Below are positions 4,926 to 61,824 of a stretch of 64,000 bases of DNA, piece by piece. The notes under the pieces were generated by a model that worked only from the letters and a program-made list of their open reading frames with translations, had not been told where the DNA came from and ran no database searches. This stretch comes from Halorubrum sp. 2020YC2. Lineage in GTDB: Archaea > Halobacteriota > Halobacteria > Halobacteriales > Haloferacaceae. Every line of letters starts with the position of its first letter. Positions within the stretch are counted from its first letter, which is position 1. A program made the position numbers and the translations under genes. The stretch is from positions 2,728,001-2,792,000 of the forward strand of contig NZ_CP076019.1 of assembly GCF_018623055.1 (NCBI RefSeq), in the 5' to 3' direction.

Positions 4926-5284
4926 ATAGAATCGGGCGGGAATCGACACGTTTCTTCGACCATCCACCTCGGCGCGCGCCTGCGAGCGGCCGCCCCCGGC
5001 GGCCGCGAAGCAGCGCGTGCGAGGGACGCGGTGAGTGAGGGGCGACCGAAGGGAGCCCCGAGCGAACCGCGAGGCTGGGGAGGCGTGAGGTTGCGGTGCT
5101 GTGCGGTCGGGGCGGGACTCAAAGGGGCAGCCGGCGAGGACGACGCTCGACGACGCAAGCACCGCAACGAGGGGGCGAACGTAGTGAGCGACCGAGTGAG
5201 GAGCGCAGCGAGTCGCGCGTCGTCCTCGCCGGCTGGGGCTTTGGAGGACGCTGTGCAAATCGCTTCGGCAGTATCTATTTATAA
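4920..5284 (-). repeat. Repeat element, copy A: candidate structured noncoding RNA with inverted TATA-like ends
   Basis: The 365-bp element is bounded by perfect inverted 10-bp ends, TTATAAATAG at 4920-4929 and CTATTTATAA at 5275-5284. Read on the minus strand, a TATA box (5284 downward) is followed 35 bp later by CCTCCAAAGCCCCAGCC. Next is a perfect 18-bp stem pairing 5217-5234 with 5129-5146. Its loop holds the conserved TTGCGGTGCTTG block. After it come GCCCCTTTGAGTCCCGCCCC, a CCTCCCCAGCCTCGCGG block and a second GC-rich hairpin (about 4973-5020). No frame is conserved between copies, so I call it noncoding. It sits between the convergent ends of hemB and the ferredoxin gene. Confidence 0.75.
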
Positions 5285-42986: not shown

Positions 42987-43334
42987 TATAACTGGTGGTC
43001 GACTGCCCGACGGCAAACACCGCCAAAGTCTCAGCCGCTCGGCGATACGTAGTAACCCACAGGTCGACGGCGAACACCGCCAAAGCCCCAGCCTTACTTA
43101 TAAATAGTCGACTGCGGATCGGCGCCGAACACCTCCAAAGCCCCAGCCGCTCGGTACTACGTGGCTGCCACCGCGGAGAACACCTCCAAAGCCCCAGCCG
43201 CTCGGTACTACGTGGCTGCCACCGCGGAGAACACCTCCAAAGCCCCAGCCGCTCGGTACTACGTGGCTGCCACCGCGGAGAACACCTCCAAAGCCCCAGC
43301 CGCGAGGACAGCACACGCTCGCTGCGCTCCTCGT
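42987..43334 (+). repeat. Tandem repeat array in the 5' part of element copy C
   Basis: The unit contains CACCTCCAAAGCCCCAGCC followed by GCTCGGTACTACGTGGCTGC. CCCCAGCC starts at 43141, 43192, 43243 and 43294, exactly 51 bp apart, and the first three units are identical. Two older, diverged units precede them (43029 and 43086; 57 and 55 bp apart), reading TCTCAGCC/CCCCAGCC. TTATAACTGG (42987) and TTATAAATAG (43098) are TATA-like motifs 5' to the diverged and the newer part. Both strands are open over the array only because 51 is a multiple of 3. Confidence 0.85.
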
Positions 43335-43557
43335 CACTCGCTTCGCTCGTTCCTGCGGTGCTTACGTCGCCTGTGCTGTCCTCGCGGCTGCCCCTTTGAG
43401 TCCCGCCCCGGACAGCACCGCGACCGCGCCTCACGCCTCCCCAGCCTCGCGGCTCACGCTTCGCGGCTTCGCCGCTCGCGTTCGCCGCGTCCCTCGCGCG
43501 TGCTCCTCGCGCCCGAAGGGCGCTCGGAGGCACGCGCCACCGCATTCCTATTTATAA
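43098..43557 (+). repeat. Repeat element, copy C: candidate structured noncoding RNA with inverted TATA-like ends
   Basis: The element is bounded by TTATAAATAG (43098-43107) and CTATTTATAA (43548-43557), as in copy A. CACCTCCAAAG follows the left motif by 32 bp. After the 51-bp units, AGCCGCGAGGACAGCAC (43298-43314) pairs perfectly over 17 bp with GTGCTGTCCTCGCGGCT (43373-43389). The loop has CTGCGGTGCTTACGTCG. Then come GCCCCTTTGAGTCCCGCCCC, CCTCCCCAGCCTCGCGG and a terminal hairpin GCGCGTGC...GCACGCGC (43496-43537) with an inner GCGCCC-GAA-GGGCGC. It lies between two minus-strand genes. Confidence 0.75.
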
Positions 43558-61357: not shown

Positions 61358-61750
61358 TGCCGCCTCCCCGATTTGAACTCGTCGAGACGCTCGAACTCGC
61401 GACTCGTCTGCTCAAATCGGTCGGGAGCATTTTCGCTGCTCACAGCTCGGTCGCTGCGCTCCCTCGTCGGTTCGCAGGAAAATGCCGCCTCCCCGATTTG
61501 AAACGCGTGAGACTCCCTTCGGTCGTCTCACTGTTCCCCGCTCGCTACGCTCGCGGGGACGGGGGACAGCTCGATCTTCAATCAAGGCTAACGAACGCGG
61601 ATCCCGCTGAAAAGCCATACCGCCTCCCCGATTTGAACTCCGGAAGACGTGCTCGCTTCGCTGCGCGCGACTTCCGTGCTCAAATCGGTCGGGAGCATTT
61701 TCGCTGCTCACAGCTCGGTCGCTGCGCTCCCTCGTCGGTTCGCAGGAAAA
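61358..61750 (-). repeat. Array of tRNA-Phe 3'-half fragments and hairpins downstream of tRNA-Phe
   Basis: TGCCGCCTCCCCGATTTGAA, which is the tRNA 3' end, recurs at 61358-61377, 61483-61502 and (with one change) 61618-61637, besides the intact gene at 61751-61770. A 94-bp block is identical at 61409-61502 and 61677-61770. At 61560-61580 a further fragment continues the second copy into the anticodon arm, after a 57-bp insert holding two hairpins. There is no integrase gene or open frame here. Confidence 0.85.
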
Positions 61751-61824
61751 TGCCGCCTCCCCGATTTGAACGGGGGACAGCTCGATCTTCAGTCGAGTGC
61801 TCTCCCAGTCTGAGCTAAGGCGGC
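61751..61824 (-). tRNA. tRNA-Phe (anticodon GAA)
   Basis: This is a complete 74-nt tRNA. The acceptor is GCCGCCT with AGGCGGC, and the discriminator is A. The D arm is AGCTCAGACTGGGAGAGC. The anticodon stem CTCGA/TCGAG encloses CTGAAGA (anticodon GAA). The T arm is CCCCG-TTCAAAT-CGGGG. There is no encoded CCA and no intron. Its 3' half is the source of the repeated fragments beside it. Confidence 0.97.

Follow-up and report, generated by a model that had tools for sequence, protein, structure and literature searches.

Hairpin units with tRNA T-loop copies form arrays downstream of tRNA genes in Halobacteria

Integron attC sites share the consensus core box GTTRRRY, and REP/BIME elements are hairpin repeats moved by IS200/IS605-like transposases. 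Family 2 casposons carry a Cas1 integrase and in some cases reside in tRNA genes (PMC6563490), and haloarchaeal proviruses leave tRNA repeats of 22 and 43 bp (PMC3119063). Reviews and genome papers cover both tRNA integration and partial tRNAs. For Haloferax gibbonsii LR2-5, the accessible part of the genome report mentions 11 partial tRNAs, several of them beside a full copy, as remnants (PMC7921747); that part of the text holds no grammar, hairpins, inverted T-loop, distribution or explanation for them. These partial tRNAs very likely include some of the arrays described below. Among open-licence papers, as far as their text was accessible, we found nothing on these arrays beyond that remark on partial tRNAs, an absence that is not proof.

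The array behind tRNA-Phe

The window, the whole 64,000-nucleotide stretch of DNA analysed here, lies in a haloarchaeal genome of 3.06 Mb. Downstream of its intact tRNA-Phe(GAA) gene are three extra copies of the tRNA 3′ part (plus-strand coordinates 61360, 61485 and 61620), and all three break at the T-stem/T-loop junction, as an earlier note on this DNA had described. The gene is followed by three units, two of which have a fixed grammar: a hairpin (H1), an inverted T-loop (T(-)), a second hairpin (H2) and then T(+), a 20-22 nt copy of T54-N73 of the tRNA itself. The remaining one, unit 2, is a variant.

61751-61824, minus strand: intact tRNA-Phe(GAA), whose last 20 nt (61751-61770, T54-N73) form the first T(+) (ARAGORN, Rfam RF00005, boundary profile)
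61690-61750, minus strand: unit 1 type A hairpin, H1 (TTTTCCTGCGAAC...GCAGCGAAAATG), starting right after N73; the same H1 lies behind tRNA-Phe in Haloferax, Natrinema, Natronomonas and others
61678-61689, minus strand: unit 1 inverted T-loop T(-) (ACCGATTTGAGC), found in the search described below
61640-61677, minus strand: unit 1 hairpin H2 (ACGGAAGTCGC...GTCTTCCGG), of an H2 family common to other tRNA loci
61618-61639, minus strand: unit 1 T(+), a copy of the tRNA-Phe 3′ part (sequence match to the tRNA tail)
61483-61617, minus strand: unit 2, type C, with a tRNA-Phe anticodon-arm remnant, two hairpins at the T-loop (61503-61559) and T(+) (61483-61504); type C recurs in sister species
61422-61482, minus strand: unit 3 hairpin H1 (type A), the same sequence as in unit 1 (exact identity)
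61410-61421, minus strand: unit 3 inverted T-loop T(-) (T(-) search)
61380-61409, minus strand: unit 3 hairpin H2, unlike that of unit 1 (unit parsing)
61358-61379, minus strand: last T(+), in unit 3, followed by chromosomal flank (tRNA-tail match)
61677-61770, minus strand: 94-bp module T(+)-H1-T(-), tRNA-proximal copy, beginning inside the tRNA at T54 (exact identity)
61409-61502, minus strand: 94-bp module T(+)-H1-T(-), distal copy (exact identity, no extension)

The two 94-bp blocks, reported earlier as identical, match exactly, and the identity extends 0 bases beyond either end. Each corresponds precisely to one T(+)-H1-T(-) module, palindromic, with its start at T54 of the tRNA and the inverted T-loop at the opposite end; the adjoining H2 differs between the copies. 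The identity had been taken as a sign of recent duplication, which we find doubtful and unneeded because a different unit lies between the two modules and their H2 hairpins are unlike; homogenisation fits equally well. The 57-bp insert in the second copy proved on folding to consist of two hairpins, as proposed (z = -5.0), and unit 2 does retain an anticodon-arm remnant. Open reading frames flanking the array encode a zinc ribbon, a carbonic anhydrase, a C5 methylase and HAD/APH proteins, with no recombinase or integron integrase gene among them, and at E ≤ 1 the only Rfam model to match the locus was the tRNA.

Grammar, polarity and distribution of the units

The edges of the units were located by comparing T(+) with the tRNA in 54 distinct units. 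Identity was 0.46 at nt 51, 0.76 at nt 52 and 0.94 at nt 53, stayed at 0.85-1.00 over nt 54-73 and was 0.48 just past nt 73; only the flanks of this profile are unbiased, because matches were selected on the last 22 nt, and identity drops in both. The unit boundary is thus sharp at nt 53/54 and at N73, and an array of two regular units reads tRNA5′^[T(+)-H1-T(-)-H2]^[T(+)-H1-T(-)-H2]^T(+). The inverted element, T(-), spans nt 54-62 and was present with at most two edits in 58 of 71 units, compared with 1.55 expected from dinucleotide shuffles; this threshold alone was used because up to four edits gave 70 observed versus 55 by chance. In 67 of 70 units T(-) was nearer to its own tRNA than to the others on average, a local tracking that serves as a stand-in for alignment-based covariation. 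Units measure 94-250 bp, consist of hairpins and tRNA parts and show neither gene-like content nor Cas1 nor terminal inverted repeats of the casposon type. Some arrays contain exact tandem repeats (4 x 111 bp behind tRNA-Lys, 2 x 106 bp behind tRNA-Glu). Copied T-loops in many arrays (for example L127, L141 and L150) show recurrent one-base indels (GTTCACAATCC, GGATTCTGAACC and GGTTTGAACC) that are absent from tRNAs.

Folding of the units is strand-polar. They fold better on the tRNA-sense strand (44 versus 9 on the antisense), the GA/GNA motif GAGCGNAGCGA occurs 24 times in sense and 0 in antisense orientation, and GCGNAGC occurs 50 times and once, respectively. G-U pairs account for 0.05 of pairs, equally on both strands, compared with 0.113 in shuffles and 10% in tRNAs, and this scarcity favours DNA over RNA. 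Such stems, polar and almost wholly Watson-Crick apart from GA mismatches, with loops of the GNA type, would be no less suited to folded single-stranded DNA than to RNA. As DNA, the T(-)-H2-T(+) segment, of median length 59 nt, folds with z < -2 in 43 of 49 cases, and when it is folded alone T(-) and T(+) pair in 49 of 49; in whole-unit folds T(-) on average pairs at least equally well with the upstream T(+). H1 alone is weakly significant as a DNA fold (15 of 49). Directly after N73 the sequence starts T-rich. The GA/GNA hairpin motif also occurs in intergenic parts of the window, at 5177-5201 and 43329-43348, each time in the sense orientation relative to the gene predicted before it.

Arrays of this kind are widespread in the genome and the class. 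Copies of a tRNA's own tail lie within 1 kb downstream of about 22 of the 46 tRNA genes in this genome, as against a single upstream match, at a tandem pair of identical tRNA-Asp genes, and are therefore not due to chance. Filtered counts put units behind 20 of the 46 tRNA genes here, 15 of 30 genes in Haloferax gibbonsii and 11 of 30 genes in Natrinema hispanicum, or about 40% (37-50% by genus) of those examined over the three genera; because some tandem tRNA genes share one array, arrays are slightly fewer than genes with units. Throughout the Halorubrum, Haloferax and Natrinema samples the units match their local tRNA. The candidate of a universal trailer of all tRNA genes was rejected, as T(-) is near chance at the unit-less tRNAs of this genome (3 of 26 versus 1.0); at those of Haloferax and Natrinema it lies somewhat above chance (5 of 34 versus 0.65).

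Among 30 Halorubrum genomes read, tRNA-Phe is in nearly all followed by zero to several units, with types A, B and C in differing orders, and tRNA-Lys arrays hold 0 to 5 units. The earlier note had named an identical ancient arrangement as the case against its own reading; no such arrangement emerges, because unit number, type and order differ between species while the grammar is kept. An exact pattern search of GTDB genomes placed the type A start behind tRNA-Phe in 38 stretches, with Haloferax, Natronomonas, Halorussus, Natrinema and Halovivax among the genera. For a class-wide view we defined a strict signature, ATTYGAAC-N20-50-GTTCRAATC, with the reversed pattern as control; most of its matches are listed on both strands because it is nearly palindromic. 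It occurs six times in this genome, every time in a tRNA array, and in 336 of 391 Halobacteria genomes (about 86%) from 82 of 86 genera, versus 0 for the reversed control; in the other genomes, linkage of matches to tRNA genes was checked at the loci read. Across a sample of the phylum, 71 of 81 Halobacteria carried the signature and 12 of 312 others, mostly with a single match, and the control gave two matches, so that outside Halobacteria the signature is at chance level in the rest of the phylum. The inverted T-loop, the strand polarity and this genome-wide and class-wide distribution go beyond what the earlier note had described. About six in seven of the sampled genomes of a well-studied class thus bear the signature, yet we found no description of it. 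That arrays with such grammar, polarity and distribution exist is nearly certain.

Modules also appear to have moved. We compared species at one genome each, a sample that contains no insertion event within a species, and H1 and H2 similarity sets are small and not independent. Within them, H2 is similar across isotypes of one genome in 11.9% of pairs versus 2.4% for H1, whereas H1 follows isotype across genomes (12.7% versus 1.0%). Of 35 tails, 33 are local; the exceptions are the tail of a neighbouring tRNA-Met and a tRNA-Arg tail in the tRNA-Lys array. The latter, the fifth tail of that array in this genome, agrees with tRNA-Arg at 12 of 12 acceptor-side bases and is followed by a hairpin block otherwise found after tRNA-Arg, and Arg-like tails recur in the Lys arrays of several sister species. 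Tails can therefore travel with units, which weakens simple target-site duplication as an explanation. A type A-like H1 lies behind tRNA-Lys in several Halorubrum, and a Lys-like variant of it is found in the tRNA-Phe array of sister genome G040.

A second repeat class shows opposite strand polarity (GCTTCGCTC type) and shorter tails that start near nt 61 (for example GGATCCCGTCGCGCC). In this genome it sits downstream of tRNA-Arg(CCG) at 2569368, tRNA-Arg(CCT) at 1165698, tRNA-Ala and tRNA-Gly(TCC), and its Arg block is also present in the tRNA-Lys array. Hairpins resembling H2 (AGTCGCAGCCCGC...GAGCAGGAACGTCT) are in addition dispersed off the surveyed tRNA genes of this genome in about ten near-identical copies (contig C1: 120493, 233223, 1144358, 1302645, 1304697, 2178676, 2407381, 2803926, 2874186 and 3045792). 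In Haloferax (L116, L137, L142 and L146), a stretch of about 1.7-1.9 kb with a cold-shock-type gene lies between two sets of tRNA-Phe tails, as if genes could sit between units.

Possible origins of the arrays

The best reading of these data, to which we would give not quite an even chance, is that the arrays are DNA modules accreted at the tRNA T-loop by a recombinase; template switching, a function as RNA and att-site debris follow in that order. Short modules, folded into hairpins on the strand in tRNA sense, would accrete at one point, the T-stem/T-loop junction, and each would bring a copy of T54-N73, which would keep the tRNA intact and push the displaced copy further out. The likely site of recombination is the T(-)-H2-T(+) hairpin of about 59 nt, which has inverted core boxes ATTYGAAC/GTTCRAAT and a break at G^TT and which a putative recombinase would read as folded single-stranded DNA; we infer the substrate, the recombinase and the direction of accretion. 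Homologous exchange and gene conversion between units may homogenise modules, with the 94-bp identity as a result, and swap H2 hairpins, and tandem duplication would multiply units. In the Leu-TAG and Asp arrays, as in the Phe array, equal H1 bodies are joined to different H2, which counts against a pure cassette model. The pairing of T(-) with the upstream T(+) in whole-unit folds and the weak DNA fold of H1 alone also speak against this reading, as does the absence of a recombinase gene beside the array. On the same reading the assembly of units would be attC-like in anatomy; integrase, open reading frames and carrier were not found. In its widest form, which we offer tentatively and hold to be rather less probable than accretion itself, the proposal is that Halobacteria have an uncharted site-specific recombination system in which tRNA T-loops universally serve as docking points for hairpin cassettes devoid of genes, a system integron-like but with folded sites built from the tRNA itself, and that this system has marked most genomes of the class.

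Alternatively, replication or repair may stall in the tRNA gene and fold back on a hairpin, with template switching copying the tail in inverted and direct orientation, and slippage and gene conversion in polyploid cells building and homogenising the arrays. Alternating (+) and (-) copies around hairpins are just what fold-back synthesis would produce, and the exact tandem repeats of the Lys and Glu arrays, the local matching of T(+) and T(-) and the near absence of G-U pairs from the stems all agree with such an origin. Against it stand the sharp edges, fixed at nt 53/54 and N73 across many different tRNAs, and the H2 families common to different tRNA loci; it sits poorly with a foreign Arg tail that has its own hairpin block inside the Lys array, and it leaves the strong strand polarity and the confinement to Halobacteria unaccounted for. 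We consider it unlikely.

Somewhat more unlikely still is that the units are transcribed behind the tRNA as structured RNA, either as a tRNA-like minihelix that offers a 3′ tRNA tail to RNase Z or as a trailer that competes with T-arm folding. The strand polarity matches that of the tRNA, T(-) is complementary to the T-loop of its own tRNA and tracks it, and type A H1 has been kept behind tRNA-Phe across many genera. Yet over half of the tRNA genes lack units, and in this genome such genes have T(-) near chance; close species differ in how many units they have and of which type, G-U pairs are depleted equally on both strands, the T-rich start after N73 suggests termination there, and no Rfam family other than tRNA matches.

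The earlier note had proposed repeated site-specific insertion at the T-loop att core by small hairpin elements, with no integrase left. Repeated events at one point, involving small gene-less hairpin elements, agree with the sharp 53/54 and N73 edges in 54 units, the many tRNA genes affected and the one foreign tRNA-Arg tail; the idea of a local relic of an integrative element does not hold up. Such elements do use tRNA-Phe: in sister genome G001 the gene and an existing array are separated by a 10-kb element that encodes a PF00589 integrase. Its direct repeat, however, is at least 33 bp long and includes the T-stem 5′ strand, whereas units break at nt 53/54, so that elements and units use the same gene with a different boundary. 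This element (L151, G001:C1:852800-864800) encodes a tyrosine integrase and an HNH endonuclease and has a weak AbiJ_NTD4 match; by eye only, its arm shows inverted T-loop-like pieces and resembles a degenerate unit. In sister genome G023 a whole unit separates the tRNA-Phe tail from an element arm (161 bp, 86-88% identity) whose counterpart in G001 and G040 stands immediately behind the tRNA; either the unit was inserted later or the element used the unit's tail.

A viral cargo origin was rejected, as no unit was found in IMG/VR with the Phe type A, H2 or strict-signature patterns: exact patterns for the Phe type A unit and two H2 families had no match there, and an inverted-T-loop pattern gave ten stretches, none of them a tRNA-linked array of the haloarchaeal kind and several looking like tRNA tails in palindromic form from prophages of non-halophiles. 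Searched against the array, plasmid and phage records gave tRNA-gene-like matches only and no unit, and we saw no circular intermediate of units. Several prophage-like IMG/VR contigs of non-halophiles (L256-L258 and L260-L263) carry long palindromes whose arms equal a tRNA 3′ end (TAGCGGGGCATGGATTTGAACC...GGTTCAAATCCATGCCCCGCTA), perhaps a phage att site with inverted arms. Although the element at tRNA-Phe, the 22- and 43-bp provirus repeats (PMC3119063) and the anticodon-arm remnant in the type C unit speak for att-site debris of CIME type, we consider it improbable. Debris left at random would not be expected to show a common grammar, with T(-) in almost every unit, or signature matches in 336 of 391 genomes; the units also break elsewhere than the element's repeat, and none was found in plasmid, phage and IMG/VR records.

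Comparison with known systems

Accretion by a recombinase, if it made these arrays, would add a new route by which tRNA genes acquire repeat arrays, perhaps one related to the growth of integron- or CRISPR-like arrays; were the units instead to act as RNA, many tRNA genes would carry a 3′ appendage that has escaped study. With a grammar that is strand-polar and matched to the tRNA, both the DNA and the RNA reading can be tested in Haloferax. Haloarchaeal 'tRNA remnants' must not be counted as proof of past provirus integration.

Among described systems, REP/BIME elements, as generally known, resemble the arrays in their short imperfect hairpins, alternating modules and single-strand polarity, but the haloarchaeal units are anchored to tRNA T-loops with local matching. 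Casposons and CRISPR arrays offer insertion at the 3′ part of a tRNA with a short flanking duplication and an array next to a fixed leader, respectively; unlike casposons, the units have neither Cas1 nor terminal inverted repeats, and the foreign Arg tail breaks the rule of an always-local target-site duplication. Accreted att sites and CIMEs of archaeal tyrosine integrases (PMC8371274) share direct repeats of the tRNA 3′ end downstream of an intact tRNA, as well as tandem accretion. The units differ in being 94-250 bp long and gene-less, in their hairpin grammar with an inverted T-loop, and in a direct repeat that is not the att core of the G001 element at tRNA-Phe.

Integrons come closest. 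In attI/attC arrays, as here, a tandem array grows at one site and folding is strand-polar. The T(-)-H2-T(+) segment may parallel the attC site as a hairpin of about 59 nt with inverted core boxes that end AAC ... GTT and a break at G^TT (here with pairing in 49 of 49 and the edge at 53/54), and the site hairpin, H2, tends to resemble others of its host lineage whatever the cargo. Unlike an integron, the array has no integrase gene, its units hold no gene cassettes, its anchor is a tRNA gene, its core box is GTTCRAAT rather than GTTRRRY, and one body can carry different H2. Because no known family had its defining features where tested, we regard the arrays as a repeat system of a new kind, one whose anatomy works most like that of an attC array.
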